Positions 4,245 to 24,211 of a stretch of 32,044 nt of DNA are shown piece by piece; the stretch's first letter is position 1; each line of letters begins with the position of its first letter. A model generated the notes under the pieces. That model saw only the letters and a list, made by a program, of their open reading frames with translations, was not told the origin of the DNA and did no database searches. This DNA comes from a virus. The stretch lies in IMG/VR virus record IMGVR_UViG_3300037628_000127, positions 1 through 32,044 of that record; one strand, written 5' to 3'. A program made the translations under genes and the position numbers.

Positions 4245-4257
4245 TTTTTGGAATACC

Positions 4258-5545: not shown

Positions 5546-5604
5546 ACTGGCTGATATGCAAATGTTTATATTGGTACGAGAGTATATTTAACACGCATTA
5601 TTGA
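5542..5604 (+). CDS. 20-residue micro-ORF
   Basis: An ATGA overlap with the preceding stop starts a 20-codon frame (MNWLICKCLYWYESIFNTHY) rich in aromatic residues. Its TGA sits inside the GAGG ribosome site of the next gene (5614), so it could serve to couple translation between its neighbours. There is no separate functional evidence. Confidence 0.35.
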   Translation: MNWLICKCLYWYESIFNTHY

Positions 5605-5613
5605 GGTAAGAGA

Positions 5614-5721
5614 ATGAAGCTTATAGAAGTTCCAAGATTTCTTTATATTATGCTTTGGATAAATTCCTGTTTATTGGTTATTAGTTCTTTCATAGGAATA
5701 GTGAGCTTTTTTGGGTGCTAA
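5614..5721 (+). CDS. 35-residue single-span membrane peptide, relative of 3364-3477
   Basis: A GAGG ribosome site precedes the ATG. Residues 9-33 form a single hydrophobic span. The core Y-I-M-L-W-I-N-S-C-L-L-V-I (11-23) aligns without gaps to residues 14-26 of the other tiny membrane peptide, with 9 identities. The end of the gene contains TTTTTT at 5707-5712, where the next frame (5711-5887) begins. It could therefore also be read as the N-terminal half of a frameshift fusion. Holin-like or exclusion roles are possible and unproven. Confidence 0.6.
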   Translation: MKLIEVPRFLYIMLWINSCLLVISSFIGIVSFFGC

Positions 5722-5887
5722 CAAAACGAAACGTGCAATAGAAGTCTTGACGACTGAATTAGATGATGTTATATACGTCAATATGAAGGAAAGAATACAA
5801 GGAAGATATTATGGTGAGCAGGCGGCAAGGTTTGACGAGTTGGTTAGAAAGGGAATAATAGTAAATGAACCGCAGACTATTTCTTAA
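5711..5887 (+). CDS. 58-residue hypothetical protein, TTG start or frameshift product
   Basis: Reading from TTG at 5711 gives 58 codons with good coding character (GANKTKRAIEVLTTELDDV, then a charged helical C-terminus). The frame is closed upstream by TGA at 5702. AGGAA at 5694-5698 is 12 bases away, so initiation is marginal. A +1 slip on the TTTTTT of the preceding gene would fuse it to the membrane peptide. It overlaps the next gene by 23 bp. An internal ATG at 5783 lacks a ribosome site. No family is recognised. Confidence 0.5.
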   Translation: MGANKTKRAIEVLTTELDDVIYVNMKERIQGRYYGEQAARFDELVRKGIIVNEPQTIS

Positions 5888-6227
5888 ACTGTTAGGCGTA
5901 TCACCTGTCTTGCCGAGCGTATTGATGGCGAAGGAGAAACTCGGCGCGTTTGACAGGCGATTTCCGGTAGAGTTTACTCCTGACGAGAAGAAGTTTACAT
6001 GGGTTATCGGGAGAGGCAATCCTGAATCATTTGATGCACCCGAATCGTTTGCAATATGGACTGAAATGTGGGATTGCCAAACAAAGCACAAATTAACATT
6101 TGACGAAAATATGGAGTGTGTAAAACGTGAAGAATTCGAGCAATTCCCGTTTGTTGTGTTTTCAGGGGAACAGAGTTATGTTGGTGATATAAGTTTTGTT
6201 GAACGAAAGATATTGCATAGATATTGA
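5865..6227 (+). CDS. Protein with Tat-like signal peptide
   Basis: A 120-residue protein whose first 22 residues are MNRRLFLKLLGVSPVLPSVL. This has a twin-arginine R-R-x-F-L-K motif, a hydrophobic stretch and a proline-rich end, as in Tat signal peptides. The remainder is a small globular domain rich in aromatic residues (FTWVIGRGN, SFAIWTEMWDC) with no recognised family. If functional, it would be exported folded to the host periplasm or anchored in the membrane, which is unusual for a phage protein. It is the last gene before the strong terminator. Confidence 0.65.
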   Translation: MNRRLFLKLLGVSPVLPSVLMAKEKLGAFDRRFPVEFTPDEKKFTWVIGRGNPESFDAPESFAIWTEMWDCQTKHKLTFDENMECVKREEFEQFPFVVFSGEQSYVGDISFVERKILHRY

Positions 6228-6290
6228 CAATTTAAGAATATGGGTTAACTGACAGCCTGGCCGGGCTGAGGTTACTAAAGAACGAATCAC

Positions 6291-6329
6291 AAGCGCAAGT
6301 AGGTGCCTACTCACCTCTTGCGCTTTTTT
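6291..6329 (+). terminator. Strong intrinsic terminator
   Basis: AAGCGCAAG (6291-6299) pairs with CTTGCGCTT (6317-6325), and the inner arm AGGTG (6301-6305) pairs with CACCT (6312-6316). T6300 is bulged and the loop is six bases, followed by TTTT. It closes the small-gene block just before the large terminase gene. A smaller hairpin, CAGCC/GGCTG, lies at 6253-6268. Confidence 0.88.
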
Positions 6330-6346
6330 CGTTGCCCACTGAAATT

Positions 6347-7975
6347 ATGAAAGAATCAATAATAAATCTCGATGACCCGAAGGTAACTGAGCAGTTTATG
6401 ATAGCGGACTCTGCTTTCTGGGCGGAGAAGTCTCATATCAGTCTATTGGGCGGTACGATATTCACTTTGGACGACTGCAAGTACCTTGCGGATATTATGC
6501 GGTCACAAGCCGACGAGAAGGTGATAATGAAAGGCGCTCAAGCCAGAATCACTACTATTTTTATGATAGATGCTATCCATGGACTCATACACAATCTTTA
6601 CCCTCAGGGAGTCATATATTACTTCCCGACCGAAAAGGCGGTCGAAGGATTTTCAAAGACACGGTTCGGGCCTTTAGTGGCTGATAACCCTGCGATACGA
6701 AGGCATTTGCAAAATACCAACTCAGTCTCAATCAAGAGAGTGGGCAAGACTTTCCTTTCACTTTTAGGCGCTAAAGCCACCCAATCTCTGCAAGGGACAA
6801 AGAAGGACGGAACATCAGTAAGGTCAACTCCTGCCGACTACATCATAAGAGATGAACGCGACCTGTTCGATGAATCGATGGTACGAATGACTAAAGATAG
6901 GTTACAGAATAGTAAAATAGCCAAAGAGGTTGATTTGGGTACTCCGACTATTCCCGATTTCGGTATTTCAAAGTCTTTTAACGAGTCCGACCAGAGGTAT
7001 TGGAAGATACCCTGTCAGTGTGGTAAGTGGACTTGTATAGTTGAAGAGTTTCCTCAATCGATAAGGTTCAAAGATAACGAACCGTACTTCGCTTGTATAA
7101 AATGTGGTGACGAGATTTATCCCAGAGACGGCCAGTGGGTGGCCAAGTACCCCGACAGGAGAGTTGCAGGCTGGCTGGTAAGTCACTTCATTACTCCTAA
7201 CATTAAATTAAGAAAGGTAATGACCCGATGGGAACACGACCAGAGAGAAGGGAAGATAGGAGAATTCTATAATGGCGTTTTGGGACTACCATTTATACCA
7301 GCCGAAAACCGCCTTCGCCACAGTGATGTCTATGCCTGCTGTGGCAATGATGTTATGCGTACCGATGTATCTATTTCAGAGACTGCCCTCGGCGCTGATA
7401 TTGGCAAACATTATCATACTATTGTTATTGCTGAGAAGTTGGATACAAAACGCGCTAAAATCATCTACCTCGCAAGAGTCAAAGGCTTTCAGGCCATCCA
7501 CGACATCGCAAAAAAGTACAATGTAAAGAGTGCCGTCATTGACAGACGGCCTTACGAAGAGGAATTTACCAACTTCCAGAACGCTGCGAAGTTCAGGGTC
7601 TTCGGGGCAGAGTATAAGGACAGGCAGAAAGATTTCCTGAAGACCGACGAAAAGACCGGAACTTATTCACTTCTGAGAAATCAGATATTCGATAAGACTC
7701 ACGCGTGGATAAAGAATAAGGAAATTGAGCTTCCCAGAAAGAGTGCAGAGGTCGATGAGTTCGTAAAGCAGATGTGTAATTGCGCGAAAGTCTTAGAGGA
7801 GAACGAGGCGGGTGACAGAGTTTACAGGTACATAAAGCTCGGTGATGACCATTACAGAAGTGCGGTCAATTACTTATACATGGCCCTGCAAGACCTGACA
7901 GCCTATCAGGGTATGAATACCCCTGGATGGGGAGTTGAAGAAGAAGTTAAAGACTGGAATCCGTTATTGGTATGA
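6347..7975 (+). CDS. terL: Terminase large subunit (GpA/T7-type)
   Basis: ATP-driven DNA packaging motor and nuclease. From the ATG at 6347 it is 542 residues. A TTG at 6332 would add five residues; neither start has a ribosome site, and both lie just after the terminator. The ATPase has a deviant Walker A-like KGAQARIT (residues 62-69) and a Walker B region IIRDERDLFDE (166-176). A zinc-ribbon insert (C-Q-C...C, then C-I-K-C, about residues 223-253) lies between the ATPase and the nuclease, as in lambda gpA-type enzymes. RNase H-like nuclease acidic residues fit GADIG (D351), VIDRR (D399) and GDDH (500-502). It is followed by coupled small genes and the portal, the usual order. Confidence 0.92.
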   Translation: MKESIINLDDPKVTEQFMIADSAFWAEKSHISLLGGTIFTLDDCKYLADIMRSQADEKVIMKGAQARITTIFMIDAIHGLIHNLYPQGVIYYFPTEKAVEGFSKTRFGPLVADNPAIRRHLQNTNSVSIKRVGKTFLSLLGAKATQSLQGTKKDGTSVRSTPADYIIRDERDLFDESMVRMTKDRLQNSKIAKEVDLGTPTIPDFGISKSFNESDQRYWKIPCQCGKWTCIVEEFPQSIRFKDNEPYFACIKCGDEIYPRDGQWVAKYPDRRVAGWLVSHFITPNIKLRKVMTRWEHDQREGKIGEFYNGVLGLPFIPAENRLRHSDVYACCGNDVMRTDVSISETALGADIGKHYHTIVIAEKLDTKRAKIIYLARVKGFQAIHDIAKKYNVKSAVIDRRPYEEEFTNFQNAAKFRVFGAEYKDRQKDFLKTDEKTGTYSLLRNQIFDKTHAWIKNKEIELPRKSAEVDEFVKQMCNCAKVLEENEAGDRVYRYIKLGDDHYRSAVNYLYMALQDLTAYQGMNTPGWGVEEEVKDWNPLLV

Positions 7976-8184
7976 GTGAATGGTGTGCATATTGCGAAGA
8001 AGACAAAGAGGTAGGAATGCCTTTAGATGTTGAAGGCAGATTTGTTACCGAAAACAATTTACATTACATTGTTAAGATTACCGCATTAAATGGATTTATA
8101 TGTAGGGATTGTGGTAAAGCGATGATGGAGAGTATTAAAAAGAGCAAGGTTTTGTGGAAAGAAACTGTATTAAGTAAAGGATAA
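7972..8184 (+). CDS. Small zinc-ribbon protein
   Basis: A 70-residue protein coupled to the terminase stop (ATGA). It has C-A-Y-C near the N-terminus (residues 5-8) and C-R-D-C-G (44-48), with a strand-rich linker, forming a zinc ribbon of roughly 40 residues. The C-terminal helix is Lys-rich. The specific family is not recognised. Its position suggests a packaging accessory or a simple phage-borne ribbon protein. Confidence 0.65.
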   Translation: MSEWCAYCEEDKEVGMPLDVEGRFVTENNLHYIVKITALNGFICRDCGKAMMESIKKSKVLWKETVLSKG

Positions 8185-8188
8185 GCTA

Positions 8189-8611
8189 ATGGCAGGTGCA
8201 GCAGTATTAAATATAAAACTTAAAGTGACAGGATTAGGTCAGGAGATAACTTACGGTGTTGACTCCGAGGGCAATCCTGAAGACCTGACCTTAACAGTAC
8301 CTACGGAATATACACCGAGTCGTCTTGTCGTAGCTACCGCTACCGCGACTGCTTTGCAACTTAGTGACTTAGCTCCGCAGATAGCACTTACGAAGATGAC
8401 TTACCTGTATATTAAGGCATTGTCCGGTACTATTTATTTACAATTGGATACTGCGGGGACGACTACATTTGCCGAAGCCGCTGCTCACATCGTCTTGCAG
8501 AGCGGTGACGCTAATCTTATCTCTATAAATCCGGCTGGTAACTTAGGCGTAACTATAGACGCTGCTTCAAATACGGATACATTCGAGTTTCTTTTACTTG
8601 GAAAGGCTTAA
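8189..8611 (+). CDS. Beta-rich putative virion protein
   Basis: A 140-residue protein with AAGGA 9 bases upstream. It is rich in Thr, Ala, Val and Leu with alternating strand patterns, such as LKVTGLGQEITYGVD and YIKALSGTIYLQL, and a Gly-rich end (DTFEFLLLGKA). It has no Cys or catalytic motif. Length and composition suit a small capsid-decoration or tail-associated protein. The family is not recognised. It sits between terminase and portal genes. Confidence 0.65.
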   Translation: MAGAAVLNIKLKVTGLGQEITYGVDSEGNPEDLTLTVPTEYTPSRLVVATATATALQLSDLAPQIALTKMTYLYIKALSGTIYLQLDTAGTTTFAEAAAHIVLQSGDANLISINPAGNLGVTIDAASNTDTFEFLLLGKA

Positions 8612-8613
8612 TC

Positions 8614-8835
8614 ATGGGCGGTGCATTGAGAACAACAAGAACAAAACTGCCACCTGCTGCTGCACCGGCACCGAGTCCTGTACCTCTGGACGTTGAGGTA
8701 TTGGAAAAGGAGCGTGCGCGACGCAGGCAGAAACTAAGACAGTTCGGACGGCAGGGGACTATTCTTACTGGCGGTGGTCTTGGAACTTCTGACGAAGCTT
8801 CGCAAAAAGGAACGTTACTCGGTGGGAGTGCATAA
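8614..8835 (+). CDS. Small basic phage head-region protein
   Basis: A 73-residue protein, two bases after the previous stop, with AAAGG upstream. A Pro/Ala-rich linker (residues 13-27) leads to an Arg-rich helix (EKERARRRQKLRQ) and then GRQGTILTGGGLG and GTLLGG. The 'R-x-x-T-I-L-T-G...K-x-T-L-L-G' pattern is common in small proteins beside podovirus terminase or portal genes. Function is unknown; binding to the connector or DNA is a guess. Confidence 0.65.
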   Translation: MGGALRTTRTKLPPAAAPAPSPVPLDVEVLEKERARRRQKLRQFGRQGTILTGGGLGTSDEASQKGTLLGGSA

Positions 8836-9008
8836 TGGTAAAAAAAGTACTAATGTATCGTAGTCGTAAGGTAACGGATTTAGACAGAAAAGAATTATTG
8901 GAACTTGTCGAGTATTTACATCAAGAAGTAGAAGACGAAAGAAAATCTCATACTCAGTCTATGAATATGTCGAGGATGTGCAGACAGGAAAGGGCGAGAA
9001 TAGCATGA
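8835..9008 (+). CDS. 57-residue charged hypothetical protein
   Basis: Starts in a TAATG overlap with the previous gene and ends in an ATGA overlap with the portal gene. The product is a mostly helical, highly charged peptide (LDRKELLELVEYLHQEVEDERKS) ending in an Arg-rich segment. Probably a short coiled coil. No family is recognised. The double coupling and continuous coding character support it. Confidence 0.58.
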   Translation: MVKKVLMYRSRKVTDLDRKELLELVEYLHQEVEDERKSHTQSMNMSRMCRQERARIA

Positions 9009-10753
9009 GTGGACAATGCAGCATACTCTTAAGGCAGAGACAACTCGAAGAGGTCAAGTGTGACTACGAACCTTTACAGCAGTTGGCTGCCAAGTACGTC
9101 AACAACCGCAGGGAACTGATGCGTGATTCCCAGAGATACGATAAGAAAGGCCAGAAGCATGGTAAGGATATATTTGATGCTTCTGCTTCGTTGGCTTTGG
9201 CTACGTGGCGAGATGGGATGCAGGGATTCATGGTATCGGAATCCTTGAGATGGTTCAAATCTCGGATGAGCGATTACCGACTAAATGATATTGATGAAGT
9301 GAGAATATTCCTTGCCGAATACGACGAGGCAATGTATGCGGCTTATGAAAGAAGTAATTTCTATTCGGTAGTAAACGAATGGTTTAACGACTCTGGCTCA
9401 GTCGGTACGGCCACAATGTACGTCGAAGAGGATATTAAAGGCGGTACGACAATCCATACACCAATCCACCTGAGAGAAGTATTTATAGCAGAGAATAGAT
9501 TCCAGAATGTTGACGTTCTTTTCAGGAAGTTCTTCTTAACTGCAAGGCAGGCAATGCAGAAATTTGGTGAGAGTAACTTAACTTCGGACGTAATCTCTAA
9601 TGCAGCGAATAACCCTGAGAAGAAACATGAATTCATACACGCAGTCTATCCCAATGATGAGCGACAGTTTGGCTCTATCACTTCTACTAACAAAGCGTAT
9701 AAGTCGGTTTATGTTCAGACTAAAGGAAGCACAGGCGGTTTGAATGAACCCAACCAAACATCAGAGGTCTTACTTGCTGGCAATACAGGTCAGAATGACC
9801 AGAATCTAATAGCGAGAGAAAGTGGTTACGATGTATTCCCCTACGCTGTGTGGCGGTTCAGAAAGAACTCGGATGAAGTTTACGGTCGTTCTCCGGCGAT
9901 GGACTTTATGACGCCTATCCAAAAGCTCGATGTTATTGGTAAGACTCTTTTGCAAGCCGCACACTTATCTGTCCGTCCTGCAAGGAACGTCCCTGAACGG
10001 ATGCGTGGTCATGTGAGAATGGATGCCGATGGAAATAACTACTTTGAAAAAGGCGGCGACCAGATTTCAGTAATCAGTTCAGGCGTAAACTTTCCAGTAG
10101 GAATTGATAGAGAAGAAAGGTATGAAGCATTTATAAAGCAAGGCTATAATGTAGAGTTTTTCAGGACATTTATCGGAAGGCAGGGCGAAGCGACGAGAGA
10201 AGAGATACTACAGATAAAAGCGGAACAGGCACAGTTAATGGGTTCTCAGGTTGATAGACTTACTAAAGACGGACTCAGTAAGAACTTCGATATAGTAGCT
10301 GGTATAGAAAATGAGGCAGGTCGTTTACCTGAACCGCCCCAGATACTTGTCGATAGGATTGAAGAAGAAAAAGAACGTGGCGCACAGAGGACTAAAATAA
10401 ACATTCGTTTCACCGGCCCCTTAGCACAGGCACAGAGACGTATGTTTGAGTTACAGCCGGTAAAAGAAGGTTTGCGGGAATTTGCCGAAGCGTCTGTTTT
10501 CTTCCCGAACATATTCGATAGGGTAAACGAACTAAAACTCTCAGAGAAAATTGGCGATAGTACCGGCTTCCCGCAGGATATTATGAATACCGACGAAGAG
10601 ATAATAGAGAAAAGGAAGCAAGATGCGGAAGCGTTGGCACAACAGCAACAATTAGAACTTTTAGGTCAAGCGGCTGATGCTGTGCCGAAACTCAACAAAA
10701 CGACTGAAGAAGGTAGCCCATTAGAGGCAATAGGGGAGGCTGTAGGAGTATGA
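9005..10753 (+). CDS. Portal / head-tail connector protein
   Basis: A 582-residue portal of the podovirus head-to-tail connector family. It forms the dodecameric ring through which DNA enters and leaves the capsid. ATG 9005 is chosen because it overlaps the previous TGA; a GTG at 8978 has its GAGG too close. The N-terminus is helical and begins with the RQRQLEEVK region. The middle contains the family-like segments YPNDERQFG, YAVWRFRKNSDEVYGRSPAMD and IQKLDVIGKTLLQAA. The C-terminal part has long helices (EEILQIKAEQAQLMG) and ends in a Gln-rich tail. Length suits the family (500-700). Confidence 0.9.
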   Translation: MSGQCSILLRQRQLEEVKCDYEPLQQLAAKYVNNRRELMRDSQRYDKKGQKHGKDIFDASASLALATWRDGMQGFMVSESLRWFKSRMSDYRLNDIDEVRIFLAEYDEAMYAAYERSNFYSVVNEWFNDSGSVGTATMYVEEDIKGGTTIHTPIHLREVFIAENRFQNVDVLFRKFFLTARQAMQKFGESNLTSDVISNAANNPEKKHEFIHAVYPNDERQFGSITSTNKAYKSVYVQTKGSTGGLNEPNQTSEVLLAGNTGQNDQNLIARESGYDVFPYAVWRFRKNSDEVYGRSPAMDFMTPIQKLDVIGKTLLQAAHLSVRPARNVPERMRGHVRMDADGNNYFEKGGDQISVISSGVNFPVGIDREERYEAFIKQGYNVEFFRTFIGRQGEATREEILQIKAEQAQLMGSQVDRLTKDGLSKNFDIVAGIENEAGRLPEPPQILVDRIEEEKERGAQRTKINIRFTGPLAQAQRRMFELQPVKEGLREFAEASVFFPNIFDRVNELKLSEKIGDSTGFPQDIMNTDEEIIEKRKQDAEALAQQQQLELLGQAADAVPKLNKTTEEGSPLEAIGEAVGV

Positions 10754-11421: not shown

Positions 11422-11667
11422 ATGCTGGAAACACAGAAACGAAGGATAACTTGTAAGAAGTGCGGTCTTCTTCATTACAGTAACGAGGACTGTCCGGAAT
11501 ATGCAATCAAGCCTCTCGATGAACATCCTAAATGGACTATCGAGCAGAGCCGAAAGAATGGTACCCCAATCGAAGGTACTATGCGTCGCATGGAGGCACT
11601 GGAAGACCGAGTAAATCAATTAATCGATATAGCAAATAAGGAGAAATTATGCCAGAACCAAGTTTAG
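11422..11667 (+). CDS. Small Cys-containing hypothetical protein
   Basis: An 81-residue protein with AAAGGA upstream, starting at the base after the previous stop. C-K-K-C-G (residues 11-15) and a later C-P (24-25) form part of a metal knuckle. The C-terminal half is a helix (EGTMRRMEALEDRVNQLIDIANK) with coiled-coil character. Its last 19 bp overlap the scaffold gene. No family is recognised. Confidence 0.6.
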   Translation: MLETQKRRITCKKCGLLHYSNEDCPEYAIKPLDEHPKWTIEQSRKNGTPIEGTMRRMEALEDRVNQLIDIANKEKLCQNQV

Positions 11668-12380
11668 TAACAGAAACGCCGCCTGTAGTTGCGTGGCATT
11701 CTGAAGAGAACGCTGAGTTAGTAACTCAACAAAACTGGAAGAGTGGCGATGATGTAATAAGGGACTATAGTGAGTTGCAAAAGTCTGCTTCTACAAGGGT
11801 TAACTTGCTTACAGAGGAGTCGTCCCCGGAAGAGAGGTCTGCTTTCTATACTAAGATAGGAAGGCCGGACACGCCCGAAGGCTATGAGATTACCGAGGTA
11901 CCTGAGAACATAGGATTTGACGAAGATGCTATTAAACAGTTACGGCAGGATGCTTTTGAAGCAGGAGTCCCTAAAGTAGCTTTTGAGACTGTTCTGAAGA
12001 ACTATCTGAACCGCCTATCTGAGCAGGTTGTCCAGACAAGAGTAGATGGCGAAAAGGTTCTCAAGGAAGAGATATGGAAAGGCGATTACGACGCTAATCT
12101 CGAAATAGCCAAGAGGTACGTATCAGAACATTGCAGCGATGAGTTCAAGCAGTATCTCGAAGATACCGGACAGGGGAATAACCCTATATTTGCCAAGCAT
12201 TTTTACGAACAGGGCAAGAAGACGTTAAGCGATACTCTGATAAAAGGCGACCAGAAGGGTAATGGTGACCCCGAATACAAACCTCAATATCCAAATTCAC
12301 CCGATATGTATAAAGCTGGTGACGATGAGGAGTCTAAGAAAGCAAGGGCATACTTTACTGCGAAAGGGTATGTATATTGA
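11649..12380 (+). CDS. Capsid assembly scaffold protein
   Basis: A 243-residue protein with AAGGAG upstream, directly before the capsid region. The segment FYTKIGRPDTPEGYEI (residues 66-81) is the well-known phage scaffold signature (G-R-P-x-T-P-x-G-Y). The rest is mainly charged helices (ASTRVNLLTEE; DAIKQLRQDAFEAGVPK), with an acidic, probably flexible middle and a basic C-terminal part that would contact the capsid protein. It is likely expelled or cleaved during maturation. Two cargo genes separate it from the capsid gene, which is unusual. Confidence 0.85.
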   Translation: MPEPSLVTETPPVVAWHSEENAELVTQQNWKSGDDVIRDYSELQKSASTRVNLLTEESSPEERSAFYTKIGRPDTPEGYEITEVPENIGFDEDAIKQLRQDAFEAGVPKVAFETVLKNYLNRLSEQVVQTRVDGEKVLKEEIWKGDYDANLEIAKRYVSEHCSDEFKQYLEDTGQGNNPIFAKHFYEQGKKTLSDTLIKGDQKGNGDPEYKPQYPNSPDMYKAGDDEESKKARAYFTAKGYVY

Positions 12381-13117
12381 AAGTTATATGGCTTACAGGT
12401 GAATCAGGAGTCGGTAAGACTATCTTAGCAGAGCGTTTGCAGGAGAATTGGCCTTGTGTAATTCTCGACGGTGACGAGATGAGGGACAGTATATCCTTAA
12501 AGGCAGGCTTTAGCAGGAAGGATAGGGCAGAACATAACTACCGGGTTGCTCGACTTGCCAAAGTCTTATCCGAACAGTCTAACGTAGTCGTCTCTGTAAT
12601 AGCGCCCATTAGAAGTGTCAGGGCGGATATAGACGATATATGCTCCCCTGAGTGGGTATGGGTAAGACGTAAAGTACCTGAAAGGGAAGGTCATTTCTAC
12701 GAAGTACCGGACGGATACTACAGACTCAACCACGATATACTCTCGATAGAACAAAGCTGTAAAACCCTTATGAGTTTGTTGGGTATCGAGAAGAAGATTT
12801 ATAGCTTATTCATAGGAAGATGGCAATCAAGGGAAGCTTTGCATAATGGCCATTTAGCATTATTCGATAAAGTCAGGAGTGAAGGTAAGAATATTGCTAT
12901 AGGTATTCGTGACACTGAGAAAGATGAGAACAACCCGCTCTCTGCCACAGAAAGAAAAAGTATAATTGAACAACAAGTACCCGACGCTAAAGTATTCGTG
13001 ATGCCTGACATCGAGGAAGTCGTCTATGGCCGACGGGTAGGTTGGGGTGTTCGTGAGTTGAGATTAGACGATGTAACCGAATCAATCTCAGCCACGAAGA
13101 TACGGGAGACATTTTAG
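12377..13117 (+). CDS. APS kinase fused to NMN-adenylyltransferase-like domain
   Basis: A 246-residue two-domain protein with a TTG start in a TTGA overlap with the scaffold stop. Residues 1-135 are an adenylylsulfate kinase (CysC-type), which phosphorylates APS to PAPS. They carry Walker A GESGVGKT (8-15), D-G-D-E-M-R (31-36), GFSRKDRAEHNYRVARLAK (about 44-62) and Y-E-V-P near 113. Residues 138-246 carry GRWQSREALHNGHLALF (H-x-G-H nucleotidyltransferase motif), N-P-L-S-A-T-E-R and a C-terminal S-A-T-K-I-R, as in NadM/NadR-type NMN adenylyltransferases. ATP sulfurylase belongs to the same superfamily, so an APS-forming role is also possible. The sulfotransferase next door supports PAPS production. 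The kinase call is stronger than the second domain's substrate. Confidence 0.82.
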   Translation: MKVIWLTGESGVGKTILAERLQENWPCVILDGDEMRDSISLKAGFSRKDRAEHNYRVARLAKVLSEQSNVVVSVIAPIRSVRADIDDICSPEWVWVRRKVPEREGHFYEVPDGYYRLNHDILSIEQSCKTLMSLLGIEKKIYSLFIGRWQSREALHNGHLALFDKVRSEGKNIAIGIRDTEKDENNPLSATERKSIIEQQVPDAKVFVMPDIEEVVYGRRVGWGVRELRLDDVTESISATKIRETF

Positions 13118-13801
13118 ATGCACATAAAAGTTCCAGTATATTCAAGATTCGGCCCTAACGTCGTTTATAAGGACGGCGAGGCTTGCTGTAAGGATAAAGA
13201 CGGCGAAGTTACATGGGCATATTCCGGTAAGGACGTTACCGGCAAAGGGATATTCGTCTGTGCGTCTCCGAGGTCTGCAACGTCTTATATGACTCTTATA
13301 CTCAGAGAGTTAGGATATGACATAGGTCATGAAAAAGCTGATAAAGACGGTTCGGTCGGTTATCATCTTGCAGTTATTCAGCCTGAGAACTGTTTTCATC
13401 AAGTTAGGCATCCTTTGAATCAGATTTCTTCGATGCAGTCTTTACATAGTTGGGGGTTCATGGATACGGTAGTAAATGTAGCCAATCACAAACTCTTAGG
13501 AATGATGCAATGCTGGTTACAATGGAATGAGATATGTGAATCGTTTTGTGTATGGCGGTACAGAATAGAGGACTTGCCTGATGCATGGCCGGAACTATTA
13601 TGGAGAATAGGTCATTATAATAGATTGGCTTTAATACCGCCCGTACCGACTAATACGAATTCATGGAAACATACGATGTTGAACTGGGACGATTTGTACG
13701 AATGCAATAGTGAATTGTCCCAGGAAATATATGATAAACATTTAGAATATGGCTACTCTCCCGCAAGGGATAGAGAGGAGTCGTTACAAATCTCAGGATA
13801 G
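13118..13801 (+). CDS. PAPS-dependent sulfotransferase-like protein
   Basis: A 227-residue protein beginning at the base after the APS kinase fusion. Residues 43-60 contain GIFVCASPRSATSYM, matching the 5'-phosphosulfate-binding loop of sulfotransferases (S-P-R-S-x-T-S/T). Residues 94-105 (HQVRHPLNQISS) fit the 3'-phosphate-binding R-x-P...S motif. A Y-R-x-E-D-L segment (148-153) also occurs in the family. It would transfer sulfate from PAPS to a carbohydrate or other acceptor. No membrane anchor is seen, so it is cytosolic. The acceptor cannot be read from sequence. The first 40 residues are strand-rich and unassigned. Confidence 0.78.
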   Translation: MHIKVPVYSRFGPNVVYKDGEACCKDKDGEVTWAYSGKDVTGKGIFVCASPRSATSYMTLILRELGYDIGHEKADKDGSVGYHLAVIQPENCFHQVRHPLNQISSMQSLHSWGFMDTVVNVANHKLLGMMQCWLQWNEICESFCVWRYRIEDLPDAWPELLWRIGHYNRLALIPPVPTNTNSWKHTMLNWDDLYECNSELSQEIYDKHLEYGYSPARDREESLQISG

Positions 13802-13937
13802 CCTTAACTGGCCTGAGTCGCATCGGCGTGAGTCGCCGCATTGAGCGAATGAATACGCAGTAGCAGCCCGCAATCGCCGGGATAGCTCCTACGCATAAAA
13901 GACAATTTGAATTCATAATGCGAAAGGAGCAACCAAA
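13802..13937 (+). promoter_or_regulatory. Non-coding, structured leader before the capsid gene
   Basis: A 136-base gap, the longest in the virion gene block. It contains GGCG-n5-CGCC near 13825, a compound stem built on GTAG/CTAC and CCCG/CGGG near 13855-13895, and CGCAT/ATGCG flanking the last 30 bases before the ribosome site (AAAGGAG). A direct repeat GAGTCGC is also present. No convincing promoter was found. It could be a stabilising or processing leader for the highly expressed capsid message. Confidence 0.4.
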
Positions 13938-14966
13938 ATGGCTGCTACACAAAAAGAGCTTAACGCTCGTGAAAACATGTTTCTCGCAGCGAAGATGACT
14001 CACAATCAGGAGATTATCGACGTAGCGGAAGTATTAAATGAGACCAATGATGTCATTCAGGACGCAGTTGTTATGCGTGCTAATGACATTACATCTCACG
14101 TTATCTCAAGACGTACCGCCCTTCCGGCCCCTTCGTGGGTGAAGATAGGCGAAGGTTGGAACGCTACCGCTGGAAGAATGCAGCAGGTAAGAGAAGGTAT
14201 CGGCCAATTGAAGGCGAGGTATCAATGCCCGGATGACGTTATGAGACTCCAGCCTAATCCTGCTAAGTTCAGAATGCAACAGGAGCGTCCTCACATCGAA
14301 GCTATGGGCCAGGAATTTGCCAATACCCTCGTAGCCGGTAGTACTACCGGAGAGGCACCTGAAGAGTTTGACGGCCTCTTGGCACGGTACAACACTCTCA
14401 GTCTATCACGGTCGGCTTACGTCGCTAATAACGGCGCTACGGCTGGCACAGGAGCGTCTTTAACGTCAATCTGGTTAATCCAGTGGCGACCGGGCGGAGT
14501 TTACTTAACCTATCCTCGTAATGCTGTCGGCGGTGGTATTAAGAAAGAAGATAAGGGCTTGGTTTACACTATGTCCGATACTTCTTCTAATACCCCATCC
14601 TATGAGCCTAATAACAAACAGTTATGGGCGCATATCACAGAATTCTCATGGGACATTGGTCTTGCTATCGAGGATACGAGAACTGTAAAGCGTATCGCTA
14701 ATATCTCGACCAACTCAACTACCGACGCAGCTACACTCGACGAGGACAAGATTATCGAGGCCCGCTACAACTACCAGACGCCGGGTACGATTTACATGTA
14801 CGTTAATGAGACCATTTTCGTACAGTTGATGATACTCGCAAAAGACAAAGTTAACGTCCAGTGGGGGCCACCGAATCCTTTCGGTCAGCCGCAACTCATG
14901 TTCCATGATATGCCGGTGAGACGACTGGATGCAATAGATACGACGGAAACAATCGTCACTACATAG
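13938..14966 (+). CDS. Major capsid protein (BPP-1-like)
   Basis: A 342-residue protein with a strong AAAGGAG ribosome site. It follows the scaffold and precedes a Bbp16-like protein, the expected position for the capsid subunit of a BPP-1-like podovirus. The sequence is helical at the N-terminus (LNARENMFLAAKMTHNQEII) and then mixed. It includes ALPAPSWVKIGEGWNATAGRMQQV, aromatic strands around SIWLIQWRPGGVYLTYPRN, and a domain ending TIYMYVNETIFVQLMILAKD. This is consistent with the HK97 fold. It has no long N-terminal delta domain, in keeping with a separate scaffold. Confidence 0.88.
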   Translation: MAATQKELNARENMFLAAKMTHNQEIIDVAEVLNETNDVIQDAVVMRANDITSHVISRRTALPAPSWVKIGEGWNATAGRMQQVREGIGQLKARYQCPDDVMRLQPNPAKFRMQQERPHIEAMGQEFANTLVAGSTTGEAPEEFDGLLARYNTLSLSRSAYVANNGATAGTGASLTSIWLIQWRPGGVYLTYPRNAVGGGIKKEDKGLVYTMSDTSSNTPSYEPNNKQLWAHITEFSWDIGLAIEDTRTVKRIANISTNSTTDAATLDEDKIIEARYNYQTPGTIYMYVNETIFVQLMILAKDKVNVQWGPPNPFGQPQLMFHDMPVRRLDAIDTTETIVTT

Positions 14967-14980
14967 AAAGGGGGCCACTT

Positions 14981-15442
14981 ATGGCACTTTTTGATGTTTT
15001 ATTTGAATTTTCCGATGCCGATGTTCAGACAATTATAGCTACCGGCACCGGCACTTTATCAACTACTAATGTAATAGATATGCAGGCTACCGACCTTGAA
15101 ATGGGTGCGGGTGAACCTGTATGGCTGAATATCAGAACTGCAACTCAATTTGCCGGGGCTGGAAATATTACATTTGCGTTAGTTAACGATACTAATGCAA
15201 CCATTGATTCAGGTTCCGTTAAAGTCCTTACAACTGAAACTATGGCTATTGCTACTGATGCAAGATTGGCTCCGGGCGGCTGGATATTGCGCACGCCACT
15301 GCCAAACGACTTCGATAGTGACCAGTATGTGGGTGTAGTTTGTGTAAGTTCCGGCGCGTCATCGGCTGGTGCTGTCGATGCGTGGTTAGACCACGGCTCG
15401 ATTTCAACTTACAAAACTCAGGTATCAACCTCTAATATTTAA
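14981..15442 (+). CDS. Bbp16-like capsid-associated protein
   Basis: A 153-residue beta-rich protein 14 bp after the capsid gene, with GGGG near the ATG. The N-terminus (MALFDVLFEFSDADVQTII, followed by T-N-V-I-D-M) matches the start of Bbp16-type proteins, which lie after the capsid gene in BPP-1-like phages and are thought to stabilise or decorate the capsid. The rest is Ala/Thr/Gly-rich strands (GEPVWLNIRTATQFAGAGNI) ending in the LDHGSIST region. No enzyme motif is present. Confidence 0.78.
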   Translation: MALFDVLFEFSDADVQTIIATGTGTLSTTNVIDMQATDLEMGAGEPVWLNIRTATQFAGAGNITFALVNDTNATIDSGSVKVLTTETMAIATDARLAPGGWILRTPLPNDFDSDQYVGVVCVSSGASSAGAVDAWLDHGSISTYKTQVSTSNI

Positions 15443-15450
15443 GGAGAGTT

Positions 15451-16080
15451 ATGGGACAGAAAATAATTGGCGTAACTTTGAATCCTGACTGGAAGATGGA
15501 CGCAAGAATAACATCTATGGTCGAATACTGGGACAGGGATGAGGATAAAGAGTCTCATTACATTCCAGCCGAATGTCCTGCTAATGGTCGGGATGCGATA
15601 GTTTTCAATGCAATGTACCGCATACCAAAGCCGACACATATTCTGTTCCTCGATGCCGATGTTCTGCCTCGCAGAAATACGCTTAAAAGACTACTCGACC
15701 ACGACAAGGACATTATAACTGGCGTTTACAATATTGGCCAGCAAGGAAAACTTTACTGGAACGTTTCAAAGTCTGACACCTTCAATGCTATTGAACTTGA
15801 AGAATTACCAGACAATCCATTCAAAGTAACTCTTTGTGGTAATGGCGTAATGTTAGTTAAGACCGAAGTCTTTGAGAGGTTAGAGTGGCCTTATTGGGAG
15901 AATATCCGTTCTCCTGGTTGTATTAAGCAGGGCGAGGACTTGTACTTCTGTAAAAAAGCAAGAGATGCAGGTTACGATATATGGTGCGACCCGAAAGTGA
16001 AATGCAACCATGTAAGAATGTCGGGATTACTGAGTATTGCAAATGAACAATCAAAACTCACGAAAGGAGTAAAAAAATGA
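15451..16080 (+). CDS. GT-A glycosyltransferase-like protein
   Basis: A 209-residue protein with AAGGAG upstream. FLDADVLPRRNTL (residues 66-78) contains a D-x-D sugar-nucleotide and metal motif. TLCGNGVMLVKTEVF (127-141) and GEDLYFCKKARDAGYDIW (161-178), followed by a late His (187), match the acceptor-side motifs of family-2-like enzymes that often occur in phages. It would move a sugar from a nucleotide donor to a glycan or protein. It has no membrane anchor. It stands between the capsid-stabilising gene and an exported beta-helix protein, pointing to a surface-glycan role. Confidence 0.82.
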   Translation: MGQKIIGVTLNPDWKMDARITSMVEYWDRDEDKESHYIPAECPANGRDAIVFNAMYRIPKPTHILFLDADVLPRRNTLKRLLDHDKDIITGVYNIGQQGKLYWNVSKSDTFNAIELEELPDNPFKVTLCGNGVMLVKTEVFERLEWPYWENIRSPGCIKQGEDLYFCKKARDAGYDIWCDPKVKCNHVRMSGLLSIANEQSKLTKGVKK

Positions 16081-17105
16081 AACGATTAATTTTAATCATG
16101 GCATTTATTTTGGCTATGTGCATACCTGTTCATGCTTTGACGTATGATGCTGAAAGCAGCACTACGTTTAATAATGGTTATCAGTGGGGCGGTCATCCTC
16201 AGAAGGACAGGGCGTGGATATGGGCCAAAGAAATGCAAGGAGCATCAGAACTTAGCGGCCAGCTTGGAACGGGCAAGATATGGTATGTCGATTCCGGGCG
16301 CGGCGTTTCAGGCGACGGTAAGTCATGGAGCAGGGCGGTCATTACGCTCGAAGAAGCTAACGTTCTTAGTCTTGCTGATGGCGGTGCAAATAGAGGCGAT
16401 GTAATCCTAATCGCTCAGGGCCATGCCGAGAACTTTTCTATTGCAAACGCCGCCGACCTTGATACGGCAGGTATTACGGTTATAGGTATTGGTAATGGAG
16501 CTAACGCACCTACCTTTTCTTATACGACCCCGGCCGGTGAGTTAGTTTTCGGTGCGGCAAGTGTAACTATTTACAACTTGAGGTTCTTCCCTGCTTCAGA
16601 CGATGTGTTGATGGCTATTAGTGTAGAGGCCGCAGGTGATAATGCTACGATAATCGGTTGCGAATGGGTCATGCCTACAACCGCAACCAATTGTTTTCTG
16701 GATGGTATCGACCTTGCAGGTACGGCCCATGACTTCAGAGTTTACAATAGCATTTACCGTAACACATCAGTTACCGGCCCTGACCACTGGATAGAAGCTG
16801 GCAACGGATTTAATCATCGCATGAGAATTGTCGGCAATGACATCATGGGCGATTTCGATGTTTCCGCTATATGGTCTAATGATGTGGATGAAGATGCCTA
16901 CATTGCATACAACACGATTCGCAATAAAGATTCAAGTGAGCATGCAATTGAATTTACTGCCGCTGCTACCGGGATGATTTGTTACAACGCGATTTACACA
17001 GACGCTTCACCAACGAGTATAGACCCCGGCGAAATGATGTTAGTCGAGAATTACGTTGCAAATGAAACTGACCGTTCGGCGGAATTATATCCGAGCGACC
17101 AATAA
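16077..17105 (+). CDS. Exported right-handed beta-helix protein
   Basis: A 342-residue protein starting in an ATGA overlap. The first 20 residues are a classic Sec signal peptide: MKR, then a hydrophobic run, then V-H-A before L-T-Y as a likely cleavage site. The rest is short strands and turns rich in Asn, Gly, Ala and Ile (NATIIGCEW, YNSIYRNTS, MRIVGNDIMGD, YIAYNTIRN), the spacing of a right-handed parallel beta-helix. Such folds often bind or cleave polysaccharides. An exported phage protein in the middle of virion genes is unusual. Enzyme or binder cannot be decided; no catalytic set stands out. Confidence 0.75.
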   Translation: MKRLILIMAFILAMCIPVHALTYDAESSTTFNNGYQWGGHPQKDRAWIWAKEMQGASELSGQLGTGKIWYVDSGRGVSGDGKSWSRAVITLEEANVLSLADGGANRGDVILIAQGHAENFSIANAADLDTAGITVIGIGNGANAPTFSYTTPAGELVFGAASVTIYNLRFFPASDDVLMAISVEAAGDNATIIGCEWVMPTTATNCFLDGIDLAGTAHDFRVYNSIYRNTSVTGPDHWIEAGNGFNHRMRIVGNDIMGDFDVSAIWSNDVDEDAYIAYNTIRNKDSSEHAIEFTAAATGMICYNAIYTDASPTSIDPGEMMLVENYVANETDRSAELYPSDQ

Positions 17106-17254
17106 TGAGTGAAAAGCATAGTATAGAGGCCAGAGACATGTTTCTTCTGGCATTAATCTTTGGATGTTCTGTGGTTCTTTGGCCTCTATGCTGGCTTGTT
17201 AATATAGTTTTATTGTTTTGGTGGACTCTTAGATGCTTAGGATTACCAATATAG
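17105..17254 (+). CDS. 49-residue membrane protein
   Basis: Starts in a TAATG overlap. Residues 11-40 are a long hydrophobic stretch (MFLLALIFGCSVVLWPLCWL, then VNIVLLFWW), broken by Pro, Cys and Trp. It is long enough for one long span or a tight two-span hairpin, and is flanked by charged ends. It overlaps the start of the polymerase/ligase gene by 22 bp. It could be a partner of that membrane enzyme or a holin-like peptide; neither is proven. Confidence 0.6.
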   Translation: MSEKHSIEARDMFLLALIFGCSVVLWPLCWLVNIVLLFWWTLRCLGLPI

Positions 17255-18780
17255 TATTTATTCTTGGCTTTATACTATGCGCTACCCTTGTATCGAGCAA
17301 TATGACAATGGGTTATGCACTTACGCATCGTTATCTTGCATGGGGGATTACTACATTGATTCTCTTTGTATTAATGGCACGAAAACTAAAGTATGGCAAT
17401 CTGATGTTCCTATTATTAGCGGCTTATTGGCTTATGGTTACATATTCGATTATTCGGGCGGTCAATCCGGGCGAAGCAGTAGGCCAGTCTTCAGAAGTAA
17501 TTTTAATGATAGCGTATTTGGCTGTAGCGGTGAAGCAATTAAAAAACAACGAATCGTTTCCGAAGGTGCTTATATTATTGACTATATTCATTGCTATATA
17601 TAGCTACATCAGGCCGGTAGGAATATTGGCATACAAGAACCAGACCTCTTATGTCTTATTCATGTTAATGGTCTTGTGTGCTTATTATTATAAATACTGG
17701 CCGATACCTTCCGTAATTGCCATAGCTACGAGTTTGATTGCAATAGCATTGTTAGGGGCAAGGTCTGTCTATCTTGCCATATTCGTTTCGGGAGTCGTTC
17801 TTGTAATAACTAATAAGAAATATCTCATAATAACGGCGTGTGTTTTCATGGCCGTTGGTGCCATTGCATATAAGAACAGTAATGTATTCAATACCGAATC
17901 CCTTAACCATAGAAAAGAGATATGGACACAAACATTAAAGATGATAAAGCATAATCCTTCCGGTGTGGGTGCAGGTAACTGGAAGATGATATATCCTGCA
18001 TATTCAGCTGAAGCCCCTCTCTCAAGGGCTAATAATTATGTGAATCGTTTTGTTATAAGGGTGCATAACGATTTTCTGGAAAAATGTGCAGAAATCGGTG
18101 CGTTGGGAATGTTAATATATATATCGATTTTTGTATTAGCAATTTATTACAGTAATGGATGGATACGAGCGGGAATTATCGGCTATATTTGTGTTGCTTT
18201 TCTCTCATTTCCTGCAAGCAGGCCGTTTCCGTCAATGCTCCTGATGATATATTTTGCCCATGCGATAAAAGACCATATAAGGTCGGTTAAATTCAAGCCT
18301 TTTTGTACGGTTGTAATAACAACATTACTTGTTATCGGGGTAATAAATTTTACTATTAGGCATTTAGGGGCAAGGCAAGTAGTAAGAATATATAGCGCCC
18401 AGATTGAAAATGATTGGGATGCGATATTATCGGAAACTGAAAAGATTTCGCCACTATTCAATATTGACCCCGTTTCCGCAACGCCGCTATCTCATTATCG
18501 TGGGATTGCTTATCATTCTAAGGGCGATAATGTAAATGCAATGAAGTCCTTTGAAGATGCGGCAAGAATAGCTCCATATCACTTATACAACCTAATGAAC
18601 CTTGCCATGATGTATCAAGTTGACTGTCAGTACGATATGGCGAAGCACGTCTATTTTGGAGTTGTGCAAATGTACCCTGATTTTGAAGATGCGAAAAATG
18701 GCATTAAAAATATTGAAACGGCAAATCAAATGATACGAAAAGCGGTAGAAGAAATTAGAAGATTTGGGCGAGGGGTTTAA
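17233..18780 (+). CDS. O-antigen polymerase/ligase-like (Wzy/WaaL) membrane protein with TPR tail
   Basis: A 515-residue protein with about 10-12 predicted membrane spans in residues 5-375. RKEIWTQTLKMIKHNPSGVGAGNW (227-250), the periplasmic-loop segment before VHNDFLEKCAEIGALG (277-292) and the conserved Arg and His fit the Wzy_C/O-antigen ligase family. These enzymes polymerise or ligate lipid-linked glycans in the periplasm. Residues 420-490 look like TPR helices (YRGIAYHSKGDNVNAMKSFE, NLAMMYQVDCQYDMAK), a layout also known in some cellular homologues. Finding this in a virion-gene operon is striking. The acceptor may be host lipid A-core, protein or virion glycan. Confidence 0.85.
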   Translation: MLRITNIVFILGFILCATLVSSNMTMGYALTHRYLAWGITTLILFVLMARKLKYGNLMFLLLAAYWLMVTYSIIRAVNPGEAVGQSSEVILMIAYLAVAVKQLKNNESFPKVLILLTIFIAIYSYIRPVGILAYKNQTSYVLFMLMVLCAYYYKYWPIPSVIAIATSLIAIALLGARSVYLAIFVSGVVLVITNKKYLIITACVFMAVGAIAYKNSNVFNTESLNHRKEIWTQTLKMIKHNPSGVGAGNWKMIYPAYSAEAPLSRANNYVNRFVIRVHNDFLEKCAEIGALGMLIYISIFVLAIYYSNGWIRAGIIGYICVAFLSFPASRPFPSMLLMIYFAHAIKDHIRSVKFKPFCTVVITTLLVIGVINFTIRHLGARQVVRIYSAQIENDWDAILSETEKISPLFNIDPVSATPLSHYRGIAYHSKGDNVNAMKSFEDAARIAPYHLYNLMNLAMMYQVDCQYDMAKHVYFGVVQMYPDFEDAKNGIKNIETANQMIRKAVEEIRRFGRGV

Positions 18781-18781
18781 T

Positions 18782-19633
18782 ATGGCTACAAAACTCGGAA
18801 TATATAATCTTGCATTATCTCAACTCGGTGAAGATAGATTAGTAAAACTCAACGACGATAACGAGAACAGGCGAAAGCTGGATAATATCTATCCTGAAAA
18901 GCTCAGGGAATTACAAGAGCAAGGCCCGGAACTTGGCTGGAAGTTCACTAAGAAAAAGAACATAGGTATTGACAGGGAATTCGCAACTATAACGGCTTTT
19001 ACAGATTACGAAACGACGGTCACAGGGACAGTTCTTGTAACTACTAAGACATCGCATAATCTTATTACCGGGAACGATATTGAGATACGCGATACTTCTA
19101 ACTACGATGCGATTTATACTCAAGTAGTTGCAATCTCAACGAGCCAATTCTATATGACGGATACTTTCGTAACTGATGATCCTACAGGTAAAGTCTATTG
19201 GGTTAGTAATAACTATCAATACAGATACAAAATACCAGACAGTGCGATAAGAGTAGTTTCGGTTAAAGTCGGTGGTATCGAGTTGACCGACTGGATTGAA
19301 GAGGATGGTTACATTCTAACGAATATGGAATCCGTTACGGTCTATATGGACTACCTGGACTTAGTAACGAATACCGGACTGTTTCCGGGCTATTTTACAA
19401 AGGTCTTATACTTATCCCTCGCATTAGAGCTTTCGTATAACATTAAAAAGAACGTAGCAAACTCCGAGAGATTAGAGGCGAGATTAGAAAAGGCAATATC
19501 GAAGGCCGAAGGTAAAGATGAGCAGAAAAAATACGTAAGAGAAGTATCGACAAGTTGGATAGATGCCGGTAGAGGCTCTACCGAAGGTCGAACTTTTAAC
19601 CCGAATTACAGAGGCGACGGCTATACAAGTTAG
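18782..19633 (+). CDS. Tail tube adaptor (T7 gp11-like)
   Basis: A 283-residue protein with GAGGGG 6 bases upstream of the chosen ATG; an earlier in-frame GTG/ATG lies inside the preceding gene. The N-terminus (MATKLGIYNLALSQLGEDRL) has the typical adaptor/'tail tubular protein A' start, followed by RRKLDNIYPEKLRELQEQ. The middle contains an inserted beta-rich part (ETTVTGTVLVTTKTSHNLIT), and the C-terminal helical part (TKVLYLSLALELSYNIKK) is typical of the family. It joins the portal to the nozzle. Confidence 0.85.
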   Translation: MATKLGIYNLALSQLGEDRLVKLNDDNENRRKLDNIYPEKLRELQEQGPELGWKFTKKKNIGIDREFATITAFTDYETTVTGTVLVTTKTSHNLITGNDIEIRDTSNYDAIYTQVVAISTSQFYMTDTFVTDDPTGKVYWVSNNYQYRYKIPDSAIRVVSVKVGGIELTDWIEEDGYILTNMESVTVYMDYLDLVTNTGLFPGYFTKVLYLSLALELSYNIKKNVANSERLEARLEKAISKAEGKDEQKKYVREVSTSWIDAGRGSTEGRTFNPNYRGDGYTS

Positions 19634-23600: not shown

Positions 23601-23762
23601 GAAGGTCAAACTTCGGCAGAGTTCCCATTAACTACCGATGATATAGAGATGGCGTTTCAGGGCGGTCAGTCGAGAAGTGGCGATGTAATTATAAGACAGA
23701 CAGACCCTGTACCAATGACAGTTCTCGCGATGTATTTAGATGTGGAGGTGAATGCAGATTGA
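20622..23762 (+). CDS. Tail nozzle (T7 gp12-like) with inserted LamG-like domain
   Basis: A 1046-residue GTG-start protein coupled to the previous gene. The N-terminus (NSFNAGELSGKLDARIDQEK, then AERRPGTEFIAG) and the later PYLTADIPTLKFEQSADVMF (about 355-375) are typical of podovirus nozzle proteins, where they normally follow closely. Here residues about 113-350 form an inserted LamG-like domain (HWKCNDNLATTAVVDATGNG; GVLDNISLWGKELSP). The part after 375 resumes the nozzle pattern (RIRWILSKDVLVIGTVGGEH, then PDPVLWCVRNDGQMAVMSYE). The insertion probably projects from the tail and binds glycan. Confidence 0.85.
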   Translation: MPKINHILNSFNAGELSGKLDARIDQEKYAFGARTMENFIAIIYGGAERRPGTEFIAGQNSNSAKGRVEGFEHSVDDVYALLFENQRLQVFTGGTSPSAVFKKYGTEDLSGVGTPIAHWKCNDNLATTAVVDATGNGHTGTAQSNTSTMSVPDAEGTANKALDIDDNDWITVADHNDLSFGDGTTDSPLSIIGWFDYDDTSALQYIVEKGRTGGDTNEYILFMHNDQLKFELHDESDGGSVKTRMTDTVSTGWHFFGITYSGVVDSDAVANDSSVKAGIRYYVDFIEVPAIIQSISSYTAMENLGEDLYIGAVAPGATGWDGVLDNISLWGKELSPVEIASLTGNDQSTVFSITTPYLTADIPTLKFEQSADVMFITHPSYESRRLSRFGDASWSLDAAGIETGPFRDENSVINKTIVSSATTGAVTLTAVGHSPFITGATAGHSPSGTTSTSKSITGALFKLVHATDTPSIAGAIDSGTLNNASATLAIPKGITWDLTTNGTWGTAGNSASVVLERSYDEGTTYETVVTVTSAANKNIVTSGTEDFADAIYRTRTSEAGGDNSICSTQLSLRDTSHIGIVRITSVTSGTVALGIVVKTLGSTDKTHRWSEGSFSNYRGWPIDVTISAEERLTFAGLTSKPLTTYGSKTGDFTDYAAGTDDDDPVTFTLVGTGQQNRIRWILSKDVLVIGTVGGEHLLGASKDDEALTPTNVRARLQTTKGSEDIAAIAVGQAILFVQRGGKRIRELLYNFESDSHKADDLTVFADHIMGTGKTDGVVDMAYQRTPDPVLWCVRNDGQMAVMSYERDQKVFAWSRYVTVDGDADSDFESVAVIYGGTRSEDEVWVTVRRTIGGGDVRYVERFKPRNWGTDDEDAFFVDSGLTYDSTDVSTVTAAHLKNETCSVFADGVVFDEAVADASTGVITLKKDGVATKASVVQYGLGYTSTLQPMKLNIENQGRAATYHILGGVLSLFKTMRGEWGENINKMNPIIYRKEGQTSAEFPLTTDDIEMAFQGGQSRSGDVIIRQTDPVPMTVLAMYLDVEVNAD

Positions 23763-24211
23763 TTGAAGTTAAACCAATGAAAGCTGAAGATTTACTCTAT
23801 GTCATTAAAAATGGCGTAAAGGAAGTGCAACTAAAAATGACTCCAACAGAAGAAATGAAAGTTATCGCCAAGCAACGTGAAGAGTCTGGCATGTGCGTTA
23901 CGGGTTGGGTAAACGGCAAGCCTGAATGCGTAGCAGGTATCGACCTTTTGTGGGAAGGAGTCGGCGACGTATGGTTAATGGTAACTCCTGCAATAGATAG
24001 ACAAGTAAAGGAAAGTTATAAGTGTATTCGTATGGGACTAAAGAAATTAATTGAAGACCATAAATTGAGACGTTTACAGTCTTATGGCAGAGTCGATTTC
24101 AAACAGTGTCATACACTTTTTAGCCACCTCGGTTTTGAAGTAGAAGGTCTGGCGCGAGAGTACACGGCCGATGGCATCGATGCGATAATGTACAGCTTAA
24201 TTACGGAATAA
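23759..24211 (+). CDS. gp13-like internal protein with GNAT-like fold
   Basis: A 150-residue protein with a TTG start in a TTGA overlap with the nozzle stop. KPECVAGIDLLWEGVGDVWL, the helix VKESYKCIRMGLKKLIEDHK and HTLFSHLGFEVEGLAREYTA follow the strand-helix order of GNAT acetyltransferases, as in the T7 gp13 group of virion-assembly proteins that lie after the nozzle gene. A canonical acetyl-CoA loop (Q/R-x-x-G-x-G/A) is not clear, so catalysis is doubtful. A structural or assembly role is likely. Confidence 0.7.
   Translation: MIEVKPMKAEDLLYVIKNGVKEVQLKMTPTEEMKVIAKQREESGMCVTGWVNGKPECVAGIDLLWEGVGDVWLMVTPAIDRQVKESYKCIRMGLKKLIEDHKLRRLQSYGRVDFKQCHTLFSHLGFEVEGLAREYTADGIDAIMYSLITE

Follow-up and report, generated by a model that had tools for sequence, protein, structure and literature searches.

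The window analysed here is a stretch of 32,044 bases of viral DNA (IMG/VR record IMGVR_UViG_3300037628_000127), which was classed without end repeats and may therefore be incomplete. The subject of this analysis is a group of six extra genes that surround its capsid genes and encode a kinase–nucleotidyltransferase fusion, a sulfotransferase-like protein, a glycosyltransferase (GT), a signal-peptide protein, a tiny membrane protein and a polytopic Wzy_C protein (Table 1). On the basis of its GP7-type capsid and Bbp16-type cement genes, the window is a fragment of a podovirus of the epsilon15/BPP-1 type. In Nostoc phage Nsp-JY18, vir555, ctEw122, epsilon15 and most of 80 related IMG/VR loci, the scaffold gene is followed by the capsid and cement genes, as a rule one or two small genes, and then the tail adaptor gene. 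This ancestral order is interrupted twice in the window, by insertion 1 (12377–13801) between scaffold and capsid and by insertion 2 (15451–18780) between cement and tail adaptor. The + strand carries all main genes of the window, and successive open reading frames (ORFs) across the region are joined at distances of −4, 0, 136, 14, 8, −4, −1 and −4 nucleotides.

Table 1. Coordinates of the capsid-region features in the window
Feature	Position	Strand	Remark
Scaffold/protease-like head gene	11649..12380	+	phrog_3742; left border of insertion 1
APS-kinase-like/nucleotidyltransferase fusion	12377..13117	+	APS_kinase PF01583 + CTP_transf_like
PAPS-dependent sulfotransferase-like protein (P0002)	13118..13801	+	motif pair
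RNA hairpin in capsid-gene leader	13854..13896	+	conserved, compensatory changes
Major capsid protein, epsilon15 GP7 type	13938..14966	+	Pfam 1e-71
Capsid cement protein, Bbp16 type	14981..15442	+	6.5e-11
GT-A glycosyltransferase (GT)	15451..16080	+	phrog_1574 / STIV A197 family
Signal-peptide protein, beta-helix-like body	16077..17105	+	N-terminal motif
Tiny 44-aa membrane protein	17105..17236	+	overlaps Wzy_C gene
Polytopic Wzy_C protein (P0008; O-antigen polymerase/ligase superfamily), C-terminal TPR	17233..18780	+	PF04932
Tail adaptor	18764..19633	+	phrog_394; right border of insertion 2

The extra genes showed a nested distribution among relatives (related IMG/VR or phage loci used for comparison, designated by L-numbers). 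Several of the relative contigs are fragments, and absence was counted only where both flanking genes were present. The GT was found in all nine lineages of the clade, followed in decreasing frequency by the post-GT protein, the sulfotransferase (four lineages), Wzy_C (two) and the kinase fusion (the window only). The closest relative, L011 (51 kb, capsid 89% identical), keeps five of the six extra genes at 42–67% identity and in the window order, which runs sulfotransferase, capsid, cement, GT, beta-helix protein, tiny membrane protein, Wzy_C and tail adaptor; the kinase fusion is absent from the whole L011 record. Sulfotransferase, capsid, cement and GT are also present in L092 and L093, the latter without Wzy_C and with a different long signal-peptide protein behind its GT. 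In L096, L098, L100 and L101 the GT stands behind the cement gene without a sulfotransferase, and the kinase fusion is missing from L011, L092 and L093, which do have the sulfotransferase. Moreover, Wzy_C is absent across the full cement-to-tail interval of L098 and L099. The same interval holds Wzy_C without the other extra genes in L032, and a GT2 together with a Gfo/Idh/MocA protein (a sugar-type oxidoreductase) in L012; the cement–tail interval thus repeatedly serves as a site for glycan genes. For most extra genes, nonsynonymous divergence between the window and L011 (dN) was well below synonymous divergence (dS), as for the sulfotransferase (0.36 vs. 1.38) and the beta-helix protein (0.26 vs. 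3.1), with the dS of GT and Wzy near saturation or undefined. Judged from the relatives, the gene set is thus one that was assembled gene by gene, not as one fixed pathway, yet whose parts belong together. An initial annotation of the window had placed its ORFs on one strand, and all of them were recovered at those positions; it had also read them as a single sulfated-glycan module. A module of fixed composition was not supported, because the genes occur independently in relatives: GT without sulfotransferase, sulfotransferase without kinase, L093 without Wzy and L032 with Wzy alone.

The most constant member of the set is the GT. A profile built from 13 GT sequences matched A197 of Sulfolobus turreted icosahedral virus (STIV; 2c0n) with an E-value of 7.9e-10, and in the D-x-D metal motif D68 was nearly invariant and D70 invariant across the 13 sequences. 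STIV A197 is an essential viral GT that was proposed to glycosylate capsid protein (PMC10551542). The cement gene is followed directly by the GT gene in each of the nine lineages, even where the sulfotransferase or Wzy is lacking. Furthermore, relatives of the GT lie right behind unrelated capsid types, namely the SU10 type (L118 and L142), phrog_3437 (L102) and phrog_267 (L104), and likewise right behind the capsid genes of a Manatee Spring phage (L010) and mycobacteriophage Baka. L118 (5833–8483) and L142 (5791–8441) both encode an SU10-type capsid, a GT11 (fucosyltransferase family), a small gene product, an A197-type GT and a tail-adaptor-like protein in succession. Other GT relatives are located away from capsid genes, for example in tail regions, so the capsid link is frequent and not universal.

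The sulfotransferase-like protein P0002 had no match in Pfam, PHROG, NCBIfam or phage tblastn. However, it contains two signatures for binding of 3'-phosphoadenosine 5'-phosphosulfate (PAPS): the 5'-phosphosulfate-binding (5'-PSB) motif R-S-[GA]-T-x-Y and, 44 residues on, the 3'-phosphate-binding (3'-PB) motif V-R-H-P-x5-S. R52, S53, T55, R97 and S105 are invariant across the four family members, which come from four lineages, and one member weakly matched PF17784 (E 0.045). The signature pair was found in no other protein family among the 6411 ORFs of the compared loci, with 0.16 occurrences expected by chance. The role of phage sulfotransferases was described as still unclear in a phage-genomics paper (PMC10580990).

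The gene upstream of P0002 encodes a P-loop domain resembling adenosine 5'-phosphosulfate (APS) kinase (residues 3–90) joined to an HxGH nucleotidyltransferase domain (residues about 142–244), with Pfam matches to APS_kinase (3e-16) and CTP_transf_like (2e-5). The kinase domain aligned with solved APS kinases, best with 8a8h (residues 3–83, E 1.5e-11), and the APS kinase motifs (P-loop, LDGDxxR, GFSxxDR and a downstream P-R) are kept. This kinase-fusion family is widespread in phages. The nearest homologue (52%) lies directly 3' of an HK97-type capsid gene in L175, where positions 3528–10704 encode in a row the capsid, the kinase fusion, a GT4, a sulfotransferase and three methyltransferases. 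In addition, L187, a single viral contig, carries at positions 1606–5840 genes for two sulfotransferases and a PIG-L deacetylase, along with a fusion in which the same NMNAT-like domain is joined to a complete APS kinase (6e-41). A sulfotransferase-like gene was found beside the kinase fusion in 16 of 80 loci vs. 1 of 160 control loci; the Fisher p-value of 1e-7 is too small, the loci being partly redundant, which tempers this support, while the direction is clear. A Pfam sulfotransferase family was confirmed in seven of ten candidate neighbour proteins, the other three having no match, and the L175 neighbour was confirmed separately. Our analysis suggests that the widespread phage kinase–nucleotidyltransferase family serves sulfation.

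Alternatively, the fusion may act in nucleotide or nicotinamide adenine dinucleotide (NAD) metabolism and be a chance passenger at this locus. Several features point in this direction and weigh against a role in sulfate activation. The second domain is nearest to archaeal nicotinamide mononucleotide (NMN) adenylyltransferase (1.4e-6), and Sanovirus phage homologues adjoin a NADAR gene. The C-terminal lid of APS kinases is missing, the PF01583 match covering model positions 4–97 of 152; the TIGR00455 score was far below the equivalog cut-off (60.5 vs. 138.7 bits), and the nucleotidyltransferase loop carries an insertion, GRWQSREALHNGH in place of GRxQPxHxGH. However, the LDGD, GFS and DR motifs are kept in the window protein and in L174 and L175 but not in the NADAR-linked homologue. 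The insertion of the gene immediately 5' of the sulfotransferase gene and the family-wide enrichment beside sulfotransferases also argue against a metabolic role, which we regard as unlikely though with a substantial chance of being correct. A kinase of the cytidine diphosphate (CDP)-phosphoramidate type (Cj1415-like) was dropped in view of the HxGH-type C-terminal domain and the co-occurring sulfotransferases, and a Zeta toxin reading found no specific support.

The protein encoded behind the GT combines a signal peptide, the N-terminal motif F-x-N-G-Y-x-W-x-G-H-P-x-K-D and a beta-helix-like body predicted with low confidence. In relatives (L093 4811–8221, L098 8606–11638, L100 2920–4917, L101 3577–4020 and L008 9965–10864) the N-terminal motif is common to the post-GT proteins and the bodies are exchanged, being beta-helices or fibre-like repeats. 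Most post-GT proteins have a signal peptide; the exceptions are the L101 protein and, in ctMEh928 (L008), the beta-helix homologue encoded immediately after the capsid gene. The beta-helix model of the window protein is weak (53) and lyase and tailspike matches appeared only at E > 5e-3, so enzyme activity is not claimed for it.

The last two genes of insertion 2 encode the tiny membrane protein and P0008. P0008 matched Wzy_C with an E-value of 2e-13 (50.6 bits vs. a cut-off of 31.7), its periplasmic His motif is kept, with H278-N conserved, and the L011 homologue has eight hydrophobic segments. Wzy-beta of phage D3 is a Wzy_C protein with an essential His, the epsilon15 polymerase likewise contains a Wzy_C domain, and alteration of the O-antigen by phage-encoded Wzy_C polymerases is established for both phages (PMC4815439). 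A pilin-type O-oligosaccharyltransferase reading had no specific support.

An RNA hairpin upstream of the capsid gene was conserved in all eight lineages that cover the capsid-leader region: the window, L011 (9919–9961), L092 (2902–2944), L093 (2578–2619), L096 (1096–1137), L098 (6356–6397), L100 (686–727) and L101 (1314–1352). Its nine base pairs were 97% formed with compensatory changes, compared with an average of 87% in shuffles and at most 49% in slid versions. Moreover, a covariance model found the hairpin once per phage at the capsid leader and nowhere else in 834 kb; it was not in Rfam, nor in the other epsilon15-type phages searched. The 3' strand of the hairpin contains CUCCU, which is complementary to the ribosome-binding site AGGAG of the capsid gene. 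Because these two segments can pair, the hairpin is suggested to control capsid translation and is a candidate translational switch for capsid synthesis.

We favour, tentatively and at a little under an even chance, the interpretation that the window carries a late-region glycan-decoration locus layered around the capsid genes, in which virion decoration is accompanied by a separate seroconversion-like pair. From the gene content, gene order, motifs, nested distribution and recurrence established by sequence, we infer substrates, acceptors, activity and the division into two tasks. In the first layer, which would operate on virions in the cytosol, the A197-type GT would transfer a sugar onto one of the virion proteins encoded in its operon (cement, capsid or beta-helix protein). 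Where a sulfotransferase is present, in four lineages, it would then sulfate that sugar or protein, and in the window the APS-kinase fusion would boost the supply of the sulfate donor PAPS. The GT and sulfotransferase have neither a signal peptide nor a membrane segment and are therefore expected to meet virions in the cytosol. In the second layer, located in the host envelope, the tiny membrane protein and Wzy_C would be the counterpart of Iap and Wzy-beta in epsilon15 and D3: by diverting the periplasmic polymerisation or ligation of a lipid-linked host glycan, they would change the receptor. Besides the kinase features noted above, two points count against this interpretation: an export signal would be unusual on the beta-helix protein if it belongs to the virion, and AlphaFold modelling of P0002 gave no usable sulfotransferase fold (predicted local distance difference test score 36).

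A rival reading that follows the initial annotation is a single host-surface pathway, with superinfection exclusion or receptor masking by a sulfated lipid-linked sugar. In that scheme the GT and sulfotransferase would act on the cytosolic face, and the product would be polymerised or ligated by Wzy_C on the periplasmic side and anchored or trimmed by the exported beta-helix protein. The presence of Wzy_C and of a signal-peptide protein, the conservation of five genes in unchanged order in L011 and the O-antigen-altering polymerases of epsilon15 and D3 (PMC4815439) are consistent with such a pathway. However, L093 keeps GT and sulfotransferase without Wzy_C, four lineages keep the GT without a sulfotransferase, and none of the window genes was recognised as encoding a flippase or an initiating transferase or as a nucleotide-sugar gene. 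In addition, the position among structural genes implies late expression, and exclusion at that stage would hardly help a phage that is not temperate. We consider one continuous host-surface pathway unlikely, with roughly one chance in four. The themes of sulfation and glycans themselves stood up, given the enrichment of the kinase family near sulfotransferases in unrelated phages and the presence of the nucleotide-binding signatures. The functions that had been offered together, superinfection exclusion, masking and virion decoration, are probably split over subsets of the genes, the GT and sulfotransferase being cytosolic and capsid-linked and Wzy_C being placed in the envelope and gained or lost independently of them.

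It is improbable that a hot spot has simply collected the extra genes as neutral passengers (morons) without shared function: other cargo does occupy the cement–tail interval of L012 and L032 and members of the wider GT family are also found at a distance from capsid genes, but unrelated phages repeatedly carry cargo of the glycan type and the low dN relative to dS of most extra genes speaks against neutrality. DNA modification was dropped, since the genes are surrounded by structural genes and none nearby was recognised as a DNA-modification gene.

A more specific possibility is that a phage-made sulfated glycan decorates the capsid or head fibres of the phage itself, with PAPS for it supplied by the APS-kinase fusion, and that the combination of kinase fusion, sulfotransferase and GT close to capsid genes arose more than once (in the window, in L175 and probably in L187). 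Taken as a whole, this proposal is itself rather unlikely. The locus offers a testable proposal: one late operon combines a capsid-linked GT with a sulfotransferase and a kinase that would supply the donor, and natural relatives each lack one part. Sulfated sugars on virions, if present, would represent a type of particle chemistry new to viruses and could affect adsorption, stability and recognition.

Single-sequence IMG/VR scans for the kinase, sulfotransferase and Wzy gave no matches, and profiles were required. GTDB genomes scanned with sulfotransferase and capsid-clade profiles contained no relative, and these scans thus pointed to no host. A tyrosine integrase was found in neither the window nor L011; one was present in the L098 record. 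Elsewhere in the window, a GNAT-like acetyltransferase gene (23759–24211) occupies the position of epsilon15 gp13 and is kept in L011 and Nsp-JY18. Small proteins with Tat-type signal peptides (MNRR-x-FLK...) are encoded just 5' of the terminase in several lineages (window 5865–6227; L011 about 1724–2267, in two copies; L094 35–391).

The locus resembles several known systems in part. As in the epsilon15 and D3 seroconversion units (Iap and Wzy-beta), a tiny membrane protein gene precedes a polytopic Wzy_C gene (PMC4815439). Epsilon15 has the same capsid type as the window, and the tiny protein is in the place and size class of Iap. However, epsilon15 encodes Iap and Wzy-beta past the tailspike on the opposite strand and not in the capsid operon, and the 44-aa window protein showed no sequence similarity to epsilon15 Iap, the homology by which a seroconversion unit is defined. 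P0008 also differs from the epsilon15 polymerase in its C-terminal TPR, only the HN...L...G motif being common to both. STIV A197 shares with the window GT the GT-A family and about the same size, but it belongs to an archaeal virus and is remote in sequence, and STIV has no sulfotransferase or kinase. Virion glycosylation in mycobacteriophages was reportedly described by Freeman and colleagues in 2023 (cited in PMC10955285). Baka has a GT of the wider family directly 3' of its capsid gene, with more GTs and a methyltransferase before the head–tail adaptor; unlike the window, it has no sulfotransferase, and an APH-type kinase stands in place of the APS kinase. Finally, the window fusion is similar to PAPS synthetases and APS kinase fusions in joining an APS-kinase-like domain to a domain of the HxGH nucleotidyltransferase fold, but its second domain matched NMNAT/cytidylyltransferase models and not ATP sulfurylase, no family of which was in the Pfam match list of the fusion.

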